Counted from the first letter of the stretch, positions 1 to 26,476 are shown. The stretch: DNA of 47,599 bases from Chthonomonadales bacterium (GCA_027459625.1 DAIDHP010000030.1:1-47599), one strand, 5' to 3'. The notes: a model not told the origin generated them from the letters alone. Numbers and translations are program-made.

Positions 1-75
1 CCTTCGCTTAACGGTTACGGTTTCCTGCACCGTAGAGGACTTGCACCTCCGAGAGCATGAACATGCCCGGCATAC
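1..75. other. unassigned edge sequence with a T-arm-like motif
   Basis: The first 75 bases hold no gene that can be supported. On the minus strand they contain GGAGGTGCAAGTCCTC (positions 35-50), a short self-complementary block with a tRNA T-arm look, followed by a GTGCAGG...CCGT stretch. No acceptor stem or anticodon arm can be drawn, so this is not a tRNA. It may be the end of a structured RNA or mobile element that continues outside the window. The family is not recognised. Confidence 0.2.
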
Positions 76-15116: not shown

Positions 15117-15201
15117 TGGGATGATCCTCGCAAAAAATATGGAATGTGCTGCAAGTAATATTTCGTAGTCGTGTGGTGTTGCGAATCCTTGCGATACTTA
15201 A

Positions 15202-15656
15202 CTAATACCCGACCCGCCACTTAAAATGCAAGGGATTCTTCGTGGAACCGGAAACCGCCACCTCCTCCCCGAACGCCTTGTATAGGTAGCCGTCCGTGAC
15301 CGCCCCTGCGGAGGAGACCAGAATTCGTGCGATTAACTGCTAGTCAAACCCGTAGAAGCTGGAAGCGCCGCCCCTTCGCTCGGATGCCAGCCCGCCCAAC
15401 ATCCCCTGAAAGTCGGTGTAGTGAGCCTGGGTAATTAGATTCACGTCGGTTTCGATAAGAACGTTCTCGCCGTCCCTCACGTAATACACGGTTCCCGCCG
15501 AGTTGGCCTTTTCCTCCCGCATCCCGTCAGCGGAGTAGGCGTAGGTCTCCGTTCCTGACGGGGAGGAGACGCCGATCAGCCGGTTCTCGTAGTCCCATGC
15601 GTAGGTTGTCATGGCTCCGCCCGCGTTCTCGGTAAGAAAATTGCCGTATGAATTAT
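15202..15656 (-). pseudogene. Rhs module 6: core relic without a tip
   Basis: This is the last and most decayed core copy. Reading from 15656 it encodes a YD-repeat end, DYENRLIGVSSPSG, SADGMREEKANSAG and on to SSFYGFD, where the Gln codon expected in FDQQSN is TAG (15340-15342). Past this stop the frame resumes (ARILVSSAGAVTDGYLYKAF) and drifts to a second TAG at 15202-15204 where GYW should be. No variable tip follows, and 85 nt further on is the start of the glycosidase gene. It cannot make a functional product. Being the distal end of the array, it may be the oldest insertion. Confidence 0.8.
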
Positions 15657-15690: not shown

Positions 15691-16419
15691 TTATAATTGC
15701 GCAGATATCGTTTTAATATTATTTATTATATAATTTATATTAAAGTCACCAGATTTCATATTATTAATATGTTTTTGATATATATTAATAGTTACTGTAA
15801 ATCCACCCTTAGGTTCTTCTGTGACAATTAATTTTCTCCTTAAGATATTAAAGTTTGATTTGCTTATATAAAATATATATGTTGATGTGCCAATATTATT
15901 TTTATGTACATCCATTTTGATGACATAGCATGAGATATTCCTGATCTTCTCATCATTTAATCTCATTACATTGAAATGAGATTTATTAATCATACCTTCT
16001 ATGTTTTCAAATAGTGAATGATCATAGGCCAATTCATATTTAGCAGGAACTTTAAATGTTTTGGTTAGTTGGTATGTGTATTTCCCATTCGAATCAAGTT
16101 TAATAAAATACAGTTTAGCCGTCCTTTCCTTGTAAATTAAAGCAGCAAAAAAAGGACCGCCGATCTTATCAACATTCAGGTACTTCGCAGGACTAAATAC
16201 AAGCCAATAATCATTACTTTTTGGTTTGCTATCATTCGTGCTTTTCTCTATTAACACTATCTTTTTAAGACTTCTGTAATGAAGATCGCATTTCCTTACA
16301 ATGGCGATCGCCGTTAAATTAGCCGCATTAGATGATAATGAATTCGCAGATATTAGCATAGGAATGATAAACATAAGTAAAAATATTTTTAATTTGAACA
16401 TCTTAAGCATCTCTTTCAT
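15691..16419 (-). CDS. exported LolA-like protein, partner gene of Rhs module 5
   Basis: The gene is very AT-rich compared with the Rhs core. The Met at 16419 is proposed as start (16401 is an alternative, with GAGA upstream); the longer frame to 16485 would overlap the tip coding sequence. A signal peptide (IFLLMFIIPMLISANS) indicates export. The body resembles LolA/outer-membrane lipoprotein-sorting folds: an early AIAIVRKCDLHYRSLKK helix, a strand series, a Cys-containing strand ISCYVIKM, then STYIFYISKSNFNILRRK followed by GGFTVTINIYQ and FNINYIINN. It sits directly after a polymorphic Rhs tip, the slot usually held by the immunity gene. An immunity or lipid-binding role is inference. Confidence 0.7.
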   Translation of the reverse strand: MKEMLKMFKLKIFLLMFIIPMLISANSLSSNAANLTAIAIVRKCDLHYRSLKKIVLIEKSTNDSKPKSNDYWLVFSPAKYLNVDKIGGPFFAALIYKERTAKLYFIKLDSNGKYTYQLTKTFKVPAKYELAYDHSLFENIEGMINKSHFNVMRLNDEKIRNISCYVIKMDVHKNNIGTSTYIFYISKSNFNILRRKLIVTEEPKGGFTVTINIYQKHINNMKSGDFNINYIINNIKTISAQL

Positions 16420-16432
16420 ATTAAATAGACCA

Positions 16433-17557
16433 TTATTCACTTTTAAACATATCTTCATCTCCATAGTACCCTTGGTAAGCTTCATAACACGCCAACTTGC
16501 ATAATTGATTTAAATAACTTGCATCCCTGAGTACGTCTCCGCTAAAATTATCGTCACAACAATTTCCGCATTCTTTCTGAGCTTCCTCACCTCCATTAGA
16601 TAACTCTACTGCTCCTATGTAAATGCACGGCTTATATATATCGGAGTTGGTAGTTAAGGAACATAAACCTTTTTCATATTCCGATTCAGTAGGCGCAATT
16701 CCAACGATGTCCGGAGGCGAGCTAACAGACGGGCACCTATTTGGCGGTATCGGGAACAACCAGAACGTTATACTATACTTAATCGAACGAGCAAAATTGG
16801 GACAATAATATTTGTATATGTTATACAATTTCATTATTCTTTTATATTCGGAATTTAAGTAACCTCCAATCAGCCCTGATTGGTCCTTCCTGTATGGTCC
16901 ATAGCAATCACTCGCATAAAATACCATCCTTTTAATCAATTTTGAATACATGGCCCTGCATCTTTCATCGTGTTTTAAACTAGAAGGATGTCCAATTATA
17001 ATAGGATCGGAATTATATCCGCTGTTTGATCCAAAATTAGGCAAGCCAATAGGATGTGGACCACTAATGAATTTTTGCATTCCCCCGGGATCAATCCAAC
17101 TCACCGGTCCGTTCCCAACATATCCATACAAATTCCAATCGCCTCCCCCAAACCCAATGGGGTCCCGGCTCATCCACCTCCCCTGATCAACCCGCAACAC
17201 CCTGCGCCTAACGTCCAGTCTGTCCGCCTCGTCCCGCCAGTAACCGACCTGTCCGCCGAACCTCAGCGAATTGACCATGGAGCCGGAAATTAGAAGTTCG
17301 TCGCCAAAGGCCTTATAGAGATAGCCGTCAGTAACATTACCATTTATCGACGCGAGAAAGCGCGTATTTGACTGCTGATCAAAGCCGTAGAAGCTGGAAA
17401 CGCCGCCCCTTCGCTCGGATGCCAGCCCGCCCCGCATCCCCGGGAAGTCGGTGTAGTGAGCCTGAGTTATCAGGTTTGCATCGGTTTCGATAAGAACGTT
17501 CTCGCCGTCTCTCACGTAATACACCGTTACCGACGAATTGACCTTTTCCTCTCGCAT
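16433..17557 (-). CDS. Rhs module 5: core end plus cysteine-rich tip
   Basis: From the Met in SADGMREEK the frame runs through the core to RWMSRDPIGFGGGDWNLYGY and the boundary SWIDPGGM. After it comes a unique tip of about 215 residues. Its first half contains KHDERC, a Cys 17 residues on, YKYYC, and FPIPPNRC, a pattern shared with the tips of modules 1 and 2. Its end has CGNCCDD and LCKLACYEAY, shared with module 4. No export signal, SD or initiation context exists; the frame stays open upstream to a run of seven A (17784-17790), where it is out of phase with the older core. It is most likely a silent orphan tip that needs recombination into an rhs gene. Toxin activity is not identifiable from motifs. 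Confidence 0.75.
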   Translation of the reverse strand: MREEKVNSSVTVYYVRDGENVLIETDANLITQAHYTDFPGMRGGLASERRGGVSSFYGFDQQSNTRFLASINGNVTDGYLYKAFGDELLISGSMVNSLRFGGQVGYWRDEADRLDVRRRVLRVDQGRWMSRDPIGFGGGDWNLYGYVGNGPVSWIDPGGMQKFISGPHPIGLPNFGSNSGYNSDPIIIGHPSSLKHDERCRAMYSKLIKRMVFYASDCYGPYRKDQSGLIGGYLNSEYKRIMKLYNIYKYYCPNFARSIKYSITFWLFPIPPNRCPSVSSPPDIVGIAPTESEYEKGLCSLTTNSDIYKPCIYIGAVELSNGGEEAQKECGNCCDDNFSGDVLRDASYLNQLCKLACYEAYQGYYGDEDMFKSE

Positions 17558-18195
17558 CCCGTCCGCGGAGTAGGAGTAGGTCTCGACCCCGCTCGGGGAG
17601 GAGACGCCGATCAGGCGATTCTCGTAGTCCCAGGAGTAGGTTGTCAGCGCGCCTCCGGCGTTCTCGGTCAGAAGGTTGCCGTTGGCGTCGTAGGTAGATG
17701 TCGTCGGTGCGCCGGACGGGGGCGACAGCAGCGTCAGCTCGTTCGCCGCGTTGTAGGAACAGGTCGTAATCCGTCCGCCGTCGTTTTTTTCAGTTGGTCG
17801 GTCGGATCGTAGGAGTAGCCAACCTGGCTTCCGTCAAGTTCCAACACTCCCGTCCTGTTGCCGATGGCGTCATAAGTGGCCGTGTACCATCTTAGAGCGG
17901 CTCCGGACGGAGCCGACGCGCTCAAGTACTGTCTCCCTTCCCGCCGGATCGTACGCGTGGTTCACGGTCATTCCGTTCGCCAAGGTCCTGACGCTCTCCC
18001 TGTCCAGCGCGTCGTACTGAACGGTGGTGATGTCGCCGTAGGGGTTGACGATACCAACAAGACGATACTGGGCGTCGTATGTGTATTTGGTCAGTCAGTC
18101 GTCCGGATCAACCATCATGGTTCGGTTCCCTGCGGGATGGTAGCCGTCGGTAACGCTTACTTGTCTCCCTGTCGGGGCGTAGCCACAGGAGGTTA
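17558..18195 (-). pseudogene. degenerate Rhs core upstream of module 5
   Basis: This is the longest core piece in the array, with classical YD repeats (TYDAQYRLVGIVNPYGDIT, YDALDRESVRTLANGM, TATYDAIGNRTG). It is broken at least three times: an in-frame TGA at 18095-18097, next to a CAGT duplication; a frameshift near 17900-17940, between AGRETVLE and SAPSGAALRWY; and a frameshift at seven A (17784-17790), after YDPTDQL. The piece begins right after the partner gene of module 4. A sequencing indel could explain the A7 shift, but not all three lesions. Confidence 0.75.
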
Positions 18196-18219
18196 CGGTA
18201 ATTATTAGATTAATTACCG
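18196..18219. repeat. perfect inverted repeat at the module 4/5 junction
   Basis: CGGTAATTA (18196-18204) and TAATTACCG (18211-18219) form a perfect 9-bp stem with a 6-nt loop. It overlaps the stop codon of the 182-residue gene and directly abuts the first Rhs core codons of module 5. It may be a weak terminator or mark a recombination junction. The other junctions do not show the same sequence. Confidence 0.45.
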
Positions 18220-18762
18220 CATTTTGTCTACTCCCCCCATCATGGATTGTGGTTGTAAAATAGACTGATTGTTTTTAATTTCCTTAAATGGCACCTCCCA
18301 CATTCTATTGGTTACATTATCCATAGCTGATATATGTGGATATCCGTTAGCTTTAAATGAAATACTAGTTCGTGTTTTTTTCCCAATCACTACAATACCA
18401 GGGGGTGACCCGTCTTTACCACTATTACATACCTCAAGTTCAATGCCCGTCCTATTTTGTTTATTTAGCATTTCAAAAATAGATACATCATTTGATGAAA
18501 AGAGACTAAATTCTCCTTTTTTATTGGAAAGCGATAAATTCACCCCTATTAATTTATTGCCCCGCTTAAGTGAATTGAAATCGGCTAAGGGATTCCCTTT
18601 GTCATCCACTAGCTCGAACTTCTGCGCACGAATGACTTTCGGATAATTAGTTTGAACAGTTCCAGCATTTGTCTTGATAATTATTCCAATCAGGCATCCG
18701 ATCGCTCCTCCAATCAACAAACCGACAATCTGTAACCTCTTTAATATTCGTTTTATAAACAT
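18214..18762 (-). CDS. single-TM protein with beta domain, partner gene of Rhs module 4
   Basis: The 182-residue protein has a glycine-rich transmembrane anchor at residues about 11-30 (VGLLIGGAIGCLIGIII), then an extracytoplasmic beta-rich domain. That domain starts with VIRAQKFELVDDKGNPLADF, a motif I have seen in small exported proteins of several environmental phyla, and includes two later strands, IELEVCNSG and GIVVIGKKTRTSISF. AAGAGA lies about 8 nt before the ATG at 18762. It begins 21 nt after the stop of the cysteine-rich tip, in the usual immunity position. Function is unknown; a membrane-tethered neutraliser of the tip is inference. Confidence 0.75.
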   Translation of the reverse strand: MFIKRILKRLQIVGLLIGGAIGCLIGIIIKTNAGTVQTNYPKVIRAQKFELVDDKGNPLADFNSLKRGNKLIGVNLSLSNKKGEFSLFSSNDVSIFEMLNKQNRTGIELEVCNSGKDGSPPGIVVIGKKTRTSISFKANGYPHISAMDNVTNRMWEVPFKEIKNNQSILQPQSMMGGVDKMR

Positions 18763-18783
18763 TATAACGTCTCTTTTCTATTA

Positions 18784-19728
18784 TCAGTTTTGCCGTAACC
18801 GTAGGTAATTTGGAGGAGGCATATTTCCTTTCGCAATAATTGCCTCACATGTCTTTACACACAATTCTTTTTCATCATCCTCGTCTGGTACATCATCGCA
18901 TAAATCGTCGCAACAGTCCTGGTCCCAACCATAAAGCTCTTTACCAAGCCGCATACATACCTCATAACAGCCATGACTAATTTTCTGCCAGTATCCGCAT
19001 TGAATTGGCTTTGGGCAAGGGAATGGTGGATACTGGAGTTGATTGCCATATATAGGAGGAGGCTGGAAATTTACATCAGGCGGATAAGGTTTGCATGGTA
19101 CTTGCGAATGGCACCATTGCTGTGCCCATGCGCAAGCGTCATCTCTTGGCCATCCTTGACTAACTCCTCTTTCATACCAGCACCAAAAACATGAACCATG
19201 AGAATGAGTGGGACCACTACACGGTTTACGATATCCGGAATATGCTTGCATGCCTGATGGATCAACCATGTCAATTGGCGTGTTTATCGAATACCGATAC
19301 AAATTCCAATCCCCCCCATCAAAACCAATGGGCTCCCGGCTTATCCATCTCCCCTGATCAACCCGTAACACCCTGCGCCTAACGTACAGCCTCTCCGCCT
19401 CGTCCCGCCAGTATCCAACCTGCCCTCCGAACCTCAGCGAATTGATCGTGGAGCCGGAAACCGCCAGCTCCTCCCCGAAGGCCTTGTACAGATAGTCATC
19501 GGTAACATTACCATTCATCGACGCGAGAATGCGCGTGTTCGATTGCTGGTCGAAGCCGTAGAAGCTGGAAACGCCGCCCCTCCGCACCGAGTTCAGCCCG
19601 CCCCACATCCCCGGGAAGTCGGTGTAGTGAGCCTGGGTTATCAGGTTTGCATCGGTTTCGATAAGTACGTTCTCGCCGTCTCCCACGTAATACACCGTTC
19701 CCGACGAATTGACCTTTTCCTCCCGCAT
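18784..19728 (-). CDS. Rhs module 4: core end plus cysteine-rich tip
   Basis: The core copy starts abruptly at a worn SPSG motif (about 19773, preceded by an in-frame TAA) and runs to the boundary VDPSGM at 19249. The tip of about 155 residues has 15 Cys. Its first part has HGSCFWCWYERG and WCHSQVPC, followed by a proline-rich linker with Cys. Its end carries three CX3C pairs: CYEVC, CCDDLC and CVKTC. This end resembles that of module 5 (CCDD, then LCxxxC). Regularly spaced CX3C pairs suggest a disulfide-bonded helical hairpin, which would form outside the cytoplasm. There is no SD at the first Met and no export signal, so the module looks silent on its own. Confidence 0.75.
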   Translation of the reverse strand: MREEKVNSSGTVYYVGDGENVLIETDANLITQAHYTDFPGMWGGLNSVRRGGVSSFYGFDQQSNTRILASMNGNVTDDYLYKAFGEELAVSGSTINSLRFGGQVGYWRDEAERLYVRRRVLRVDQGRWISREPIGFDGGDWNLYRYSINTPIDMVDPSGMQAYSGYRKPCSGPTHSHGSCFWCWYERGVSQGWPRDDACAWAQQWCHSQVPCKPYPPDVNFQPPPIYGNQLQYPPFPCPKPIQCGYWQKISHGCYEVCMRLGKELYGWDQDCCDDLCDDVPDEDDEKELCVKTCEAIIAKGNMPPPNYLRLRQN

Positions 19729-19822
19729 CCCATCCGCGGAGTAGGAGTGGATATTCGTTCCGGGTGAGGTGGCTTAACCTCCATCAAGCGGGCGAGAGAA
19801 TAAATTGTTAGCATCCATTTAA

Positions 19823-20944
19823 TCAGTGCTTTCCTCCCTTTCCTGGCGAGGACGCAGGGGAGGTGGAAAACGTCAATCTGACAATGTGTCCGCTTTTACA
19901 GTTGACGATCAGTAGAGCATTCTGATGCAGATTGATGACCGCCAAGTACATGGCGTTGTGCGAAAATGAGTAACTCGCAATATCGGAACCGCCTTTTATG
20001 GTGATATCATGAATATGCTTGGTGCGAACATCCACAATGACATATCGGTCGCCCTTATCCACCACCGGGTAGCCGACTTTCCCGTTGTCTAGCCACATCG
20101 CTTCTCCGTATGGAGGGGGCGCTAGGCCGGGCGGAATGACCACCTTAATCCTTCCACCATTAACAGCGACCGAATAGATAGTAAACCCCTTGGTTTTGCC
20201 ATCATAATCCCCGAATATAATGTGTTTATTATCCGTCCATCCATTTCCCATATTTACAAATCCCATAAGATTCCGTACAAGAATTCGAGAGTATGGTATT
20301 ATTTGATTAAACTCAATAATGAAAAGGCGGTTCATCATAATAAAAGCGTAGCAGGCTCCATCCGGGGACCATTCTCCAGCCCATTCAATTGTTGACTCGC
20401 CGGTTATTCTGCTGTTTTTATGATTAACCAAGTCATACACCCAGATTCGATGGTTGAGGCTGTCATATATCATTTTTGTCCCATTGCGATTAATATGCGG
20501 ATAAAAACCATTCGGTATAATTAATCGATGAGTATTTGGATATTTTAAATAAAATACTTCATTACGATTAAATTTATTGTTTCCATTTACCGTACTGAGC
20601 AAAACTTTGTTGGTGTTACCGACCCAATAAACATCTTGGGTTTTCATAGGAATTGAAATTCGATTTCGAACCTTAAATCCAATGCGGGTTCGCTCTAATA
20701 CAAACAAGTATTCTCTGTCATTTCGTTTATCGATCGCCCGGACGAGAAGACGTTGATCGTCCAAAGACCACTTCGGCTCTTCAATCATCTCATAATATCC
20801 ATACGACGTGCGGTTAAGATTAAACATATTTATTTTAGCGGAACATTGCCGGTGGCAAAAAATTAGCATCGCACCAGTAATTTCAATAATCATAACAATC
20901 CGCCGCAGTCGTAATGGCAAACAATGAGAGTTATATTGGTTCAT
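19823..20944 (-). CDS. membrane-anchored beta-propeller protein, partner gene of Rhs module 3
   Basis: The 373-residue protein has a basic N-terminus, then a membrane anchor or signal at about 16-31 (IVMIIEITGAMLIFC). The rest reads as TolB-type propeller blades: EPKWSLDDQRLLVRAI, EWAGEWSPDGACYAFI, NGWTDNKHIIFGDY, EAMWLDNGKVGYP and SYSFSHNAMYLAVI. AGGAA lies about 6 nt before the ATG at 20944. It starts 75 nt after the stop of the most cysteine-rich tip in the array. A propeller in the immunity slot is unusual; it could be a binding partner, a scavenger or unrelated cargo. A short decayed core (module 4) follows its stop. Confidence 0.75.
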   Translation of the reverse strand: MNQYNSHCLPLRLRRIVMIIEITGAMLIFCHRQCSAKINMFNLNRTSYGYYEMIEEPKWSLDDQRLLVRAIDKRNDREYLFVLERTRIGFKVRNRISIPMKTQDVYWVGNTNKVLLSTVNGNNKFNRNEVFYLKYPNTHRLIIPNGFYPHINRNGTKMIYDSLNHRIWVYDLVNHKNSRITGESTIEWAGEWSPDGACYAFIMMNRLFIIEFNQIIPYSRILVRNLMGFVNMGNGWTDNKHIIFGDYDGKTKGFTIYSVAVNGGRIKVVIPPGLAPPPYGEAMWLDNGKVGYPVVDKGDRYVIVDVRTKHIHDITIKGGSDIASYSFSHNAMYLAVINLHQNALLIVNCKSGHIVRLTFSTSPASSPGKGGKH

Positions 20945-21018
20945 TCGAAATTCCTTTTTTTCACAATGTATATCTATCCCTGATGATGCACGTATTTACA
21001 AACACATTTTAAGTAACA

Positions 21019-21870
21019 TCATGTCCATCTATCATCATTCCATATATAGCATTTCTGCTTTATATCGCAACAACTTTGACATTGGGCTCGAGGATTAAAG
21101 AAATGAATATTAGGATCACAGGGATTACCATAACCTGGGCATGGTCGAAACGGTAGGTAACAAGCTAATTGCACACATATATCTCCTCCGAGACATTTTG
21201 CGAAACATTTGCCACATTCATCGGCGCTATTAACACAATCTTTCACACATTCCTTTGTGCATTTTTGCAACGATGGCGGCAAAGTGGGTTTATTTTTGGA
21301 ACAACAGGGCCAGTGATACTTGCAACAAAGCCAGTCAAAACAACATTCCGGAAATAGAAGAGGTTCCAAACAACAAAGCCCTCCTAGCGAAAGGCCAATC
21401 GGGTCTATTTGCAACAAGGGATTATTCCGAACATACCTATACAAATTCCAATCACCTCCCCAAAACCCTATCGGATCCCCGCTCATCCACCTCCCCATAT
21501 CCGTCCTCAGGTGTCTCGCCCTCACGTAGAGCCTCTCCGCTTCGTCACGCCAGTAACCGACCTGCCCTCCGAACCTCAGCGAATTGACGGTGGAGCCGGA
21601 AACAGCCAGCTCTTCCCCGAACGCCTTGCAGAGATAGTCATCGGTAACATTACCGTTTATCGAAGCAAGAATGCGCGAATTTGACTGTTGGTCAAACCCG
21701 TAGAAGCTGGAAACGCCGCCCCTCCGCTCGGATGTCAGCCCGCCCCACATCACGGGGAAGTCGTTGTAGTGAGCCTGGGTGACGAGATTGGCGTCCGTCT
21801 CTATCAGCACGTTCTCGCCGTCCCTGACGTAGTAAACGGTTCCCGCCGAGTTCGCCTTTTCCTCCCGCAT
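21019..21870 (-). CDS. Rhs module 3: core end plus 22-cysteine tip
   Basis: The core copy begins exactly at GVSSPSG (about 21924), with no start codon or SD, and runs to the boundary IDPIGL. Its last blade differs slightly from the other copies (YVRARHLRTDMGRW instead of YVRRRVLRVDQGRW). The tip of about 125 residues contains 22 Cys: an N-terminal block of paired Cys (GLCCLEP, PECCFDWLCC, WPCCSK), a middle of CX3C repeats (CTKECVKDC, CGKCFAKC) and an end with CQSCCDIKQKC. This resembles metal-binding or disulfide-rich extracellular domains, but no named family is recognised. It is probably a silent module. Confidence 0.75.
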   Translation of the reverse strand: MREEKANSAGTVYYVRDGENVLIETDANLVTQAHYNDFPVMWGGLTSERRGGVSSFYGFDQQSNSRILASINGNVTDDYLCKAFGEELAVSGSTVNSLRFGGQVGYWRDEAERLYVRARHLRTDMGRWMSGDPIGFWGGDWNLYRYVRNNPLLQIDPIGLSLGGLCCLEPLLFPECCFDWLCCKYHWPCCSKNKPTLPPSLQKCTKECVKDCVNSADECGKCFAKCLGGDICVQLACYLPFRPCPGYGNPCDPNIHFFNPRAQCQSCCDIKQKCYIWNDDRWT

Positions 21871-22018: not shown

Positions 22019-22591
22019 TCAAAAGGCGAATAGCCGTAGCCATCTTGGAACCCACTGATATATTCCCAAAGTAAGTATTACCATCGCTGCATTGCCTGCG
22101 GCTAATCCGCTCAAAAACCGATGGTATCTCTTATTTAATCTTTCCTCCATCGAATCCAAATTCCCATCCCCTCGCTTTTCCGCCTTTCGCTTTTCGAAAC
22201 TTACTATCCGTCGCCAGCATAAGCGAAATATTACGATACGCCCTACCCCCAGTATCAGTAAATAGATAATAAGGGGTGATCCGAATACGATTAAATCACT
22301 CCAGGATGAGAAATCGAGGGGAGTATGATAAGCGCTCATAAGATTAAACGCGAATAGCATCATCAGGAATGGAATCAGAAATTCGATCATCAAACATAAT
22401 GATATGAATGTGCCTATTATAAGGCGTGGAAGTCCTTTTTCGATATTCCATTTCACTCCTCTTCTCTCGTTAAAACGCCTAAGGCTATTTCCAATATGCC
22501 AGGGTAACACGTAAATTAATAGATAATGTAAGACTGAAAAACAGGATAATGGGATAATATCCGCTATGCAAACGGCGAAAAATATTCGCAT
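22019..22591 (-). CDS. multi-TM membrane protein, partner gene of Rhs module 2
   Basis: The 190-residue protein has about four hydrophobic helices: near 8-30, 57-84 (IIGTFISLCLMIEFLIPFLM), 98-122 (LIVFGSPLIIYLLILGVGRI) and 163-183. A charged loop (FEKRKAEKRGDG...) lies between the last two. GGGAGGTGG lies 7 nt before the ATG at 22591. It begins 57 nt after the stop of tip 2. Small multi-TM proteins are known as immunity to membrane-active toxins; here that role is inferred from position only. Confidence 0.75.
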   Translation of the reverse strand: MRIFFAVCIADIIPLSCFSVLHYLLIYVLPWHIGNSLRRFNERRGVKWNIEKGLPRLIIGTFISLCLMIEFLIPFLMMLFAFNLMSAYHTPLDFSSWSDLIVFGSPLIIYLLILGVGRIVIFRLCWRRIVSFEKRKAEKRGDGNLDSMEERLNKRYHRFLSGLAAGNAAMVILTLGIYQWVPRWLRLFAF

Positions 22592-22647: not shown

Positions 22648-23751
22648 TCAGACCGCCCCTCCAAGCGCTCCTTGAATGTAATGCCATATTTCTGGTGCAT
22701 CTTGCTTTATCAATACCCACATTGCCGCGCCAGCACCTGCGATCACGCCCACGCCTTCGACATTAGGCCCCATTGGCACTTTGACGAAACCGGGAGAGTC
22801 CGACCCGACGGTTACAGGGATTTGATCTTCCAAATAAGATGAGTAAGGCAATCGGCACGATTTCCCGTTTGGAGGACAGTTCTTGGGAACAGGCAGTTTT
22901 TTATCCTTCAGAATATCCACAAGTTGGTCAAGAGCCTTGTTCGCGATAATGCAATAGGGAATCTTGAATTGCATTAATTCATCAATCGCTTCCGCATCCT
23001 CCTTTATATTGCTTAGCCAACTATGTATTTTGAAATATTGTTCCGCCCGGTCACGATTATCAGGCTTGATCCCCGAGCACTTCCATAAGGACATAACATA
23101 TTCTTTCAACAGTTTCCGCAACGCATTTTCAACCGCCTGGCATCTTTCCTCGTGTGTTTTCATATTTGAACCGGGATCAAATAATCGCAACAACCGGGGA
23201 TCAAGAATTTTGTGATACATATACCAATTTGGATCATTTCCGGGGGTGGGGTATCCCGAATGCAAAGTTGCCAAGCCATTCGGATCGATCCAGCTCACCG
23301 GTCCATTCCCAACATACCGATACAGATTCCCATCCCCTCCGTCAAACCCCAGAGGATCCCGGCTCATCCACCTTCCCTGATCAACCCGCAAGACTCTGCG
23401 TCTTACGTACAGCCTCTCCGCCTCGTCCCTCCAGTATCCGACCTGACCGCCGAACCTCAGCGAATTGAGCGTGGATCCGGATATCGCAAGCTCCTCCCCG
23501 AAGGACTTATAGAGATAGCCGTCCGTGATCGCTCCTGCGGGGGAGACCAGAATGCGCGTGTTGGCTTGCTGGTCGAACCCGTAAAAGCCGGAAACGCCGC
23601 CCCTTCGCTCGGATGCCAGCCCGCCCCACAGCCCCGGGAAGTCGGTGTAATGAGCCTGGGTGATCAGGTTAGCATCCGTCTCGATAAGTACGTTCTCGCC
23701 GTCTCCCACGTAATACACCGTTCCCGAAGAATTGACCTTTTCTTCCCGCAT
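22648..23751 (-). CDS. Rhs module 2: core end plus helical tip
   Basis: The frame is open from about 23857, where it overlaps the end of the preceding gene in another phase, through DYENRLTGVSSPSG to the first Met at 23751. The core runs to SWIDPNGL. The tip of about 205 residues begins with a linker, then THEERC, a second Cys 20 residues on, FKIPYC and LPVPKNC: the same pattern as in modules 1 and 5. A glycine-rich hydrophobic segment (EGVGVIAGAGAAMWVLI) near the C-terminus could insert into a membrane, which fits the multi-TM partner gene downstream. No SD or signal peptide is present, so expression probably depends on recombination with a full rhs gene. Confidence 0.75.
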   Translation of the reverse strand: MREEKVNSSGTVYYVGDGENVLIETDANLITQAHYTDFPGLWGGLASERRGGVSGFYGFDQQANTRILVSPAGAITDGYLYKSFGEELAISGSTLNSLRFGGQVGYWRDEAERLYVRRRVLRVDQGRWMSRDPLGFDGGDGNLYRYVGNGPVSWIDPNGLATLHSGYPTPGNDPNWYMYHKILDPRLLRLFDPGSNMKTHEERCQAVENALRKLLKEYVMSLWKCSGIKPDNRDRAEQYFKIHSWLSNIKEDAEAIDELMQFKIPYCIIANKALDQLVDILKDKKLPVPKNCPPNGKSCRLPYSSYLEDQIPVTVGSDSPGFVKVPMGPNVEGVGVIAGAGAAMWVLIKQDAPEIWHYIQGALGGAV

Positions 23752-23860: not shown

Positions 23861-24802
23861 TCATTTGATAAATAAAAATTTGTATAAATTATCTTTTATA
23901 CTGGATTGGCTAGTCATTTCAACTTTTATGAGCCTTCCTTTTAAATCCAAACAAGATACTTCATGTTGTCTGATAGGAGTATTCGCGTTATCCGTTGAAA
24001 TGCCTTGCTTTGATACAGTAATATTCCATTTATTTTGAATATCATATTTAATCAATCTTGCATTTGAAGGGATAATATCACTAATGACATACACAGATAT
24101 ATATCCGTTTACCGTCGTTACTGTATTTTCCTGATTCATCGTAAGAATGCCATTTTTGTCAAATTCGTATGATATTGGAATATTGTATTTGGACTTAACC
24201 AATAATACTTTGGTGCCATCCACAACCTCCATGCCTACAATTTTATTTGTAATGATTATAGGCTTCCCTTTCCAAAATGGATAAGGTGTCTTGCTAGTCC
24301 ATTCATCTCCAATTTTAACAGGCTTTGCTGGCGTGGAAATACCTTGCGGAGGCAAATCCGTTTTAATTAATTTCAATAGCTTGTAAAGATTAGGAGCTTT
24401 CTTTGGAATCATTGAATTCTTTGTTATTACTCCATATTTATTAATATAAGATTTAATTATGGGCTTTTTAGATTGAAAAAAAACAACTTTGCCGTGATAT
24501 ATAACCTTCATATTCATTGGCTGCAATGTCGTAATTGCCGAGCCATCAGGATTTGTTTTTAATATTTTTAATTTAAGTATTTCTGACATATTTGCTTTTG
24601 CAGTAACTAATGGGAGTAATTTATAAAGCTGCCCTTCAACCTTATATATCAACACTTGGTTTTTTGTGTAAATACGGTGAATAAAGTAAGTTTTCAATAG
24701 GGACGCCGAAATGGTACCAAATGCGTAATTTGAAGAAATTTCCGTAAACGTAAGAATGAACACGAGGGGTAAGAGAGAAAAGACCCAAGCTTTCGTTTTC
24801 AT
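23861..24802 (-). CDS. secreted protein of unknown function in the Rhs array
   Basis: The 313-residue protein has a clear signal peptide (AWVFSLLPLVFILTF, cleavage near NYAFG). The mature part is beta-rich with alternating hydrophobics and no Cys clusters; motifs such as IGDEWTSKTPYPF and SYEFDKNGILT recall beta-sandwich envelope proteins. TAGGAGAT lies 9 nt before the ATG. It is AT-rich. It stands between module 1 and module 2 and is separated from the tip of module 1 by about 850 bases, including a pseudogene. It could be a leftover partner of a lost tip. Its last codons overlap, in another frame, the first Rhs codons of module 2. Confidence 0.75.
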   Translation of the reverse strand: MKTKAWVFSLLPLVFILTFTEISSNYAFGTISASLLKTYFIHRIYTKNQVLIYKVEGQLYKLLPLVTAKANMSEILKLKILKTNPDGSAITTLQPMNMKVIYHGKVVFFQSKKPIIKSYINKYGVITKNSMIPKKAPNLYKLLKLIKTDLPPQGISTPAKPVKIGDEWTSKTPYPFWKGKPIIITNKIVGMEVVDGTKVLLVKSKYNIPISYEFDKNGILTMNQENTVTTVNGYISVYVISDIIPSNARLIKYDIQNKWNITVSKQGISTDNANTPIRQHEVSCLDLKGRLIKVEMTSQSSIKDNLYKFLFIK

Positions 24803-25651: not shown

Positions 25652-26476
25652 CTATTCTAATAATTCCCACCAAGGAAACTCTTCATACCAAGGGATTGGT
25701 GGAGGCAAAGGGATTAGAGGCGGCAGCGGTATATGTATTGGAGTAGGAGAAGGAACAGAGAATGGGGACTGATATTTCGAATGCCCCGGTTCACCTGAAT
25801 CACATTTGCTTGGAGCGGGCAATTGCTTTATCTGCTGCTCTATAGACAGTTTCGCCAAATCACAATATGTCAATTTATTCTCTATGAATTTTTTTATATA
25901 TTCTGCATACTCTATCAATTCTTTTATCTTTTCCGCTTTTTTAAATTGATTATAGTGGGGGAATTTTTTAATACCTAAGCATTCCTTAGCGTATTTTTTT
26001 AACATCTTCTGTACAAATTCTTCAAGCAATTCGCATTTCTTATCGTGTTTGGACTGAGGAGGATCATCGGAATCACCCGGAACTGAGATATAAGTTCCTC
26101 CAGGTCCTAGTTCAAGTAGTGTTAAGCCGCTTGGATCAACCATTGTAACTGGGTACCCCGTCGCATATCGATACAGGTTCACGTCCCCGCCCCAAAATCC
26201 GATAGGGTCCCGGCTCATCCACCTCCCCTGATCAACCCGCAACACCCTGCGCCTAACGTCCAGCCTCTCCGCTTCGTCACGCCAGTATCCGAATTGTCCG
26301 CCGAACCGCAGCGAATTGACCGTGGTTCCGGAAACCGCAAGCTCCTCCCCGAACGGATTGAAGAGATATTTATCCGTAACATTACCATTTATCGACGCGA
26401 GAATGCGCGTATTGGATTGCTGATCAAAACGGAGTTCAAACTTTCCCATGGAACTGGTTCCATGATAACACTCCAA
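25652..26476 (-). CDS. Rhs module 1: core end plus proline-rich tip
   Basis: This is the first module in transcription order and the one with the shortest core: homology starts at FDQQSNTRILAS (about 26431) and runs to VDPSGL. The 15 residues before it are unrelated and begin at a TTG; Met10 is another possible start, and neither has a good SD. The tip of about 155 residues carries KHDKKC, a second Cys 17 residues on, a charged helical stretch, KLTYC and LPAPSKC, as in modules 2 and 5. It then ends in a proline-rich tail (PIHIPLPPLIPLPPP) and PWWELLE. Catalytic motifs of known toxins are absent. Confidence 0.7.
   Translation of the reverse strand: MECYHGTSSMGKFELRFDQQSNTRILASINGNVTDKYLFNPFGEELAVSGTTVNSLRFGGQFGYWRDEAERLDVRRRVLRVDQGRWMSRDPIGFWGGDVNLYRYATGYPVTMVDPSGLTLLELGPGGTYISVPGDSDDPPQSKHDKKCELLEEFVQKMLKKYAKECLGIKKFPHYNQFKKAEKIKELIEYAEYIKKFIENKLTYCDLAKLSIEQQIKQLPAPSKCDSGEPGHSKYQSPFSVPSPTPIHIPLPPLIPLPPPIPWYEEFPWWELLE

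Follow-up and report, generated by a model that had tools for sequence, protein, structure and literature searches.

Rhs proteins end in variable tips, and those that have been characterised are mostly cysteine-poor cytosolic enzymes with cytosolic immunity proteins. The 47,599-nucleotide stretch of Chthonomonadales DNA analysed here (GCA_027459625.1 DAIDHP010000030.1:1-47599), hereafter the window, makes up the entire contig C30 of a draft genome of 4.55 Mb and encodes five Rhs tips, three of which are conspicuously rich in cysteine. For which compartment are such tips made, and are they toxins at all? We consider it rather likely that these three, tips 3 to 5, are disulfide-folded Rhs toxins that act in the envelope, that they belong to an array of orphan tip/immunity cassettes, and that their partner genes encode immunity proteins of the same compartment. 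The most fitting description is an envelope-directed Rhs polymorphic toxin variant of the disulfide type. The observations behind it are the enrichment and conservation of cysteine, the cassette layout, the co-inheritance of tip 4 with an exported partner, the single core type, the peptidoglycan enzymes of the same class, and the genes for oxidative folding. If this is true, a Rhs lineage built for the oxidising envelope would widen the target range of the toxin class, core type combined with cysteine content would provide a sequence-only rule predicting where a tip acts, and the class would amount to a set of small disulfide-rich, putative antibacterial domains.

Cysteine content and conservation

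All window features described below lie on the minus strand. Tip 3 (21019..21390; 123 aa) contains 22 cysteines, tip 4 (18784..19248; 154 aa) 15, and tip 5 (16433..17077; 214 aa) 11; the counts for tips 3 and 4 agree on recounting with those of the initial annotation of this DNA. Relative to a baseline of 1.32%, derived from 17 neighbouring genes of the window, a binomial test gives an excess in tip 3 (p=1e-18), tip 4 (p=3e-9) and tip 5 (p=1.5e-4). The excess over this baseline is not significant in tip 1 (25652..26122; 4 cysteines in 156 residues) or in tip 2 (22648..23271; 5 in 206). Tips 1, 2 and 5 have a helical N-terminal module with four cysteines in common.

The initial annotation had singled out repeated CX3C pairs in these tips. 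With CX3C counted as C-x3-C without an inner cysteine and the expectation taken from shuffled sequences, tip 3 exhibits three (2.2 expected), tip 4 three (1.0 expected, p=0.07) and tip 5 one (0.4 expected), and 62 Cys-rich tips of the phylum exhibit 76 against 62+-8 (z=1.7). The shuffles thus rule out the CX3C series as a signature. CC and CXC are rarer in these 62 tips than composition predicts (z=-3.4 and -4.4, respectively). Tips 4 and 5 do contain the CCDD followed by LCx3C that had been pointed out, the two motifs being separated by 13 and 15 residues, respectively. This likeness does not reflect homology, as phmmer gives no match between the two tips, and the combined motif CC-(8..16)-CX3C is not enriched (9 against 6.2+-2.7). 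The helical CHCH domains with twin CX3C or CX9C are similar in being Cys-rich and predicted helical, but the tips show no CX3C regularity beyond composition and no Pfam match above cut-off, the best being that of one sister tip (a further tip behind the same type of core) to COX6B (E=0.097). As CX3C occurs at the level of composition, the anomaly lies in the cysteine content and in its conservation, not in a CX3C series.

Conservation is observed for tip 4 and for three families of sister tips. The homologue of tip 4, in the metagenome-assembled genome WY3.bin81 (G012) from a different family of the same order, has 14 cysteines in common with it, and identity is 0.93 at cysteines against 0.42 at other residues. 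The corresponding values for the three sister families are 0.89/0.47, 0.79/0.27 and 0.70/0.26. A lack of conserved cysteines in homologues, which the initial annotation had named as evidence that would speak against its proposal, is therefore not what is observed. A scan of genome contigs returned the G012 homologue only, and a partial homologue was found in another genome (G010). The N-terminal C[FY]xC...AC..A...C module of tip 4 recurs in tips with different C-terminal parts. A module of this type also ends a protein of another genome (G022, contig C91; L087/L115) that opens with a metallopeptidase-like HELMH region and keeps merely a remnant of the Rhs core.

Cassette layout and partner genes

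From 26476 to 15691, there are five truncated Rhs C-terminal cores; behind each of them come a variable tip and a gene on the same strand, in that order. No full-length Rhs gene is found within the window. The tips sit behind a Rhs-repeat-associated core with a DPxG junction. The cores of the window are 74-84% identical to the query core, yet most of the tips are unrelated, so the divergence sets in abruptly at the tip. The core bearing tip 3 occupies 21391..21870, that of tip 4 19249..19728, and that of tip 5 17078..17557, with degenerate Rhs repeats extending upstream to ~18200; a decayed core remnant with internal stops lies at 15196..15612. This layout matches the orphan tip/immunity modules known from contact-dependent inhibition (CDI) and Rhs loci (PMC3150448). 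The Rhs/RhsI pairs and the orphan rhs and cdiA-CT modules (PMC3150448; PMC3482391) likewise comprise a core ending in DPxG, a variable tip and a downstream gene in tandem cassettes, but the tips described here contain 5-18% cysteine and their partners are mostly exported or membrane proteins. The text of PMC3482391 contains no mention of disulfides or of Cys-rich tips, and its only lipoprotein immunity protein is presented there as an exception.

Behind tip 3 lies a gene (19823..20944) for a putative exported immunity protein, with an N-terminal hydrophobic segment and a beta-propeller-like body (DPPIV_N, E=6e-7). The putative immunity protein of tip 4 (18214..18762) combines an N-terminal transmembrane anchor with a 'RAQxFELVDxxGxxLADF' domain, whereas that of tip 5 (15691..16485) is a signal-peptide protein with a weak LolA-like match. 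The partner of tip 2 (22019..22591) is a multi-pass membrane protein. A signal-peptide protein is also encoded after tip 1 (23861..24802), at a distance of 849 nt, which makes the partnership uncertain.

The tip 4 partner is homologous to the gene behind the G012 tip (39% identity, 9e-29). A second tip family, found in G012 and G001 (L066/L073), is in each case followed by a homologous lipoprotein-like gene. In both the tip 4 pair and this sister pair, the partner is thus tip-specific, linked and co-inherited, and the inheritance of tip and partner together across families is the pattern of toxin/immunity pairs. The suggestion in the initial annotation that the tips may not be toxins at all is difficult to reconcile with tips and exported partners that travel as linked pairs. 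Using a simple hydrophobicity rule to call export, and pooling two sets of loci, of which the second comprises further loci mostly from genomes unused before, we observed signal-peptide or transmembrane partners behind 66 of the 88 Cys-rich tips, compared with 9 of the 25 that are Cys-poor (p=6e-4). In the second set alone, which contains few Cys-poor tips, the result is weaker (18/29). As related sequences are not independent, the p-values overstate certainty. The partners of two Cys-rich tips elsewhere (L100, L101) resemble ankyrin-repeat proteins with signal peptides, a location that seems unusual for ankyrin immunity proteins.

The array could also be a graveyard in which the tips drift and their cysteines reflect no present function. 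The truncated cores, the stops in the remnant at 15196..15612 and the degenerate repeats upstream of tip 5 would fit such decay. Nevertheless, all five tips and their partners keep open reading frames, cysteines are more strongly conserved than other residues, orphan modules are functional in other systems (PMC3150448), and a longer copy of the same core type bears a 15-Cys tip. We regard decay as very unlikely for these reasons. The longer copy, an open Rhs frame of 921 aa cut off by the end of contig C60, is a candidate for the full-length Rhs onto which the orphan tips could recombine. Its tip belongs to a family present in four genomes (L031, L120, L133 and L081, with 15, 11, 13 and 9 cysteines, respectively) and sharing the motif V..QC....NVNYV..G....C.

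Core type, related enzymes and folding environment

From genomes of the phylum, 97 complete tips were gathered (96 without ambiguous residues). The 74 tips behind a core ending in Y[V/A/G] have a median cysteine content of 7.8%, against 0.95% for the 23 tips behind a core ending in YC (p=7e-9). Both kinds of core occur within the genome of the window, which makes a general effect of codons or proteome less plausible. Among the 291 genomes of the phylum, 175 match the profile of the Y[V/A/G]-type core at E<=1e-15, some of the matches being YC-type cores.

The enzymes recognised among the Cys-rich sister tips point to the cell wall. In a Pfam scan of 72 Cys-rich or intermediate tips, one sister tip was identified as Peptidase_M15_4, an M15 D-Ala-D-Ala carboxypeptidase (4.9e-10, 40.3 bits against a cut-off of 25), and SLT matched weakly in four. 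Six lysozyme-like tips exhibit an invariant glutamate and YGL, and their profile finds C-type lysozymes in the PDB (E=0.0012), a score to which shared cysteines may contribute. One tip of the second set resembles the peptidoglycan L,D-enzyme Tlde1 under the cut-off (E=1.4e-4), and about eight Cys-rich tips exhibit, by eye, an HExxH or similar zinc-protease motif. No cytosolic nuclease or ADP-ribosyltransferase was found above the reported thresholds; Ntox44 matched one tip of contig C42 below threshold (E=0.033). Nor did tips 3-5 match any cytosolic enzyme, the other finding that had been named beforehand as one to overturn the proposal.

The catalytic motifs of SLT and C-type lysozymes, Peptidase_M15_4 and Tlde1 occur in Cys-rich sister tips behind the same type of core but were not found in tips 3-5. 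The latter could accordingly be structural, adhesive or target-binding, disulfide-rich ends of surface Rhs proteins, next to unrelated genes for exported proteins. Proline-rich linkers and motif-free Cys-rich tips are common in the class, and the partners are diverse, as would be expected in that case. However, homologous tip/partner pairs are inherited between taxonomic families, the array has the cassette layout of polymorphic toxins, and the sister tips are cell-wall hydrolases or probable proteases, so that we consider a role other than toxicity improbable.

With regard to folding, VKOR and DsbA genes are adjacent in the genome of the window, and VKOR was found in all ten genomes tested. 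The disulfide-type, extracytoplasmic nature that the initial annotation had proposed for the tips is supported by these genes, by the conserved cysteines, by the exported or membrane partners and by the peptidoglycan enzymes among the sister tips. There is a precedent in Ssp2 and Ssp4, periplasmic effectors that require DsbA in the recipient (PMC7690452). They are likewise envelope-acting, disulfide-dependent antibacterial effectors, properties that the tips described here are predicted to have from their sequences. In contrast to these tips, Ssp2 and Ssp4 are small cargo of the type VI secretion system (T6SS). Delivery by a T6SS or phage-type sheath was rejected for the present system, as no sheath gene was found in ten genomes (PF05943, 0/10; PF04984, 0/10).

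As toxins, tips 3 to 5 would be delivered or presented outside the cytoplasm by the Rhs protein, would fold oxidatively with intramolecular disulfides, and would act on the wall, the membrane or the envelope proteins of a neighbour, while an exported or membrane-anchored partner would shield the producer in the same compartment. Several results weigh against this scheme. Besides the failure to find a sheath gene in the ten genomes, no signal peptide is obvious in the two longest Rhs frames inspected, which are near-complete. Neither a toxin enzyme family (Pfam/NCBIfam profiles) nor a recognised enzyme motif was found in tips 3, 4 and 5. No credible homologue of tip 3 was found in the 291 genomes of the phylum, and the conservation figures are those of tip 4 and the sister families. 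The hydrophobicity rule fails to call several partners, including that of tip 3, as exported. For tips 4 and 5, structure prediction with AlphaFold, which had been put forward as a check, gave mostly helical models of low confidence, too weak to use (mean pLDDT, the per-residue confidence score, 51 and 46), and Foldseek found nothing with the tip 4 model. These weak models suggest that tips 4 and 5 are small helical bundles. As a separate observation, a Cys-rich frame of ~150 aa lies directly upstream of a full-length Rhs frame opening at 1649 in another locus (L101), and could serve as an accessory or as an export partner of the Rhs protein.

Odd cysteine numbers and other Rhs types

Cys-rich tips tend to have an odd number of cysteines. 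This is the case for 49 of 62 in the first set (p=5e-6) and, as a replication, for 23 of 31 in the second (p=0.005), or 72 of 93 over both (window and L031-L223). With each homology cluster counted once, odd numbers prevail in 53 of 69 clusters (p=5e-6). Cys-poor tips exhibit no odd/even bias. Related tips often differ by two cysteines or a multiple of two (9/11; 11/13/15; 15/21). Tips 4 (15) and 5 (11) fit the rule, whereas tip 3 (22) and the tip 4 homologue in G012 (16) are exceptions.

The natural reading of the odd counts is cysteine pairs plus one extra residue, and this bears on whether the cysteines bind zinc or Fe-S instead of forming disulfides. In that case, the tips would be small domains held together by metal, and they could be cytosolic. 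They do often contain CX2C and CX3C pairs, and several sister tips exhibit HExxH zinc-protease motifs. However, odd counts and differences by even numbers suit disulfide pairs plus one better than groups of four ligands, Pfam finds no zinc-binding family in the tips of the window, the partners are exported or membrane-bound, and VKOR and DsbA are encoded in the genome. Metal binding therefore appears unlikely to account for the cysteines, and disulfide folding remains the preferred explanation.

The bias may, more tentatively, reflect a phylum-wide '2n+1' rule, which we hold to be possible but doubtful: pairs of cysteines would be gained or lost together while one extra is kept, and the single thiol of the released tip would form a bond outside the tip itself. 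The mate could belong to a second tip, giving a dimer, or to the Rhs shell, the immunity protein or a targeted protein. A shell cysteine was considered and rejected as the mate, as the two longest shells contain 4 and 6 cysteines, even numbers, and hence the shell does not obviously supply it. To our knowledge, no covalent step through a tip thiol has been described for Rhs toxins.

Two other types of Rhs were observed in addition to the Cys-rich one. The second type, with an ARYYAPxLGRF...YC core, is found in the genome of the window, in L033:1-13000 (contig C43), L010, L012, L018 and L019. Its tips are Cys-poor, several of them have an N-terminal part in common, and its partners are apparently cytosolic, for instance pentapeptide-repeat-like. 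The third type exhibits a RYYDPxxGSFLT core (L022-L026 and L028-L030; contigs C69, C5, C57, C64, C27 and C38). Its tips are short, hydrophobic and glycine-rich, are mostly followed by small membrane proteins, and are possibly pore-forming.

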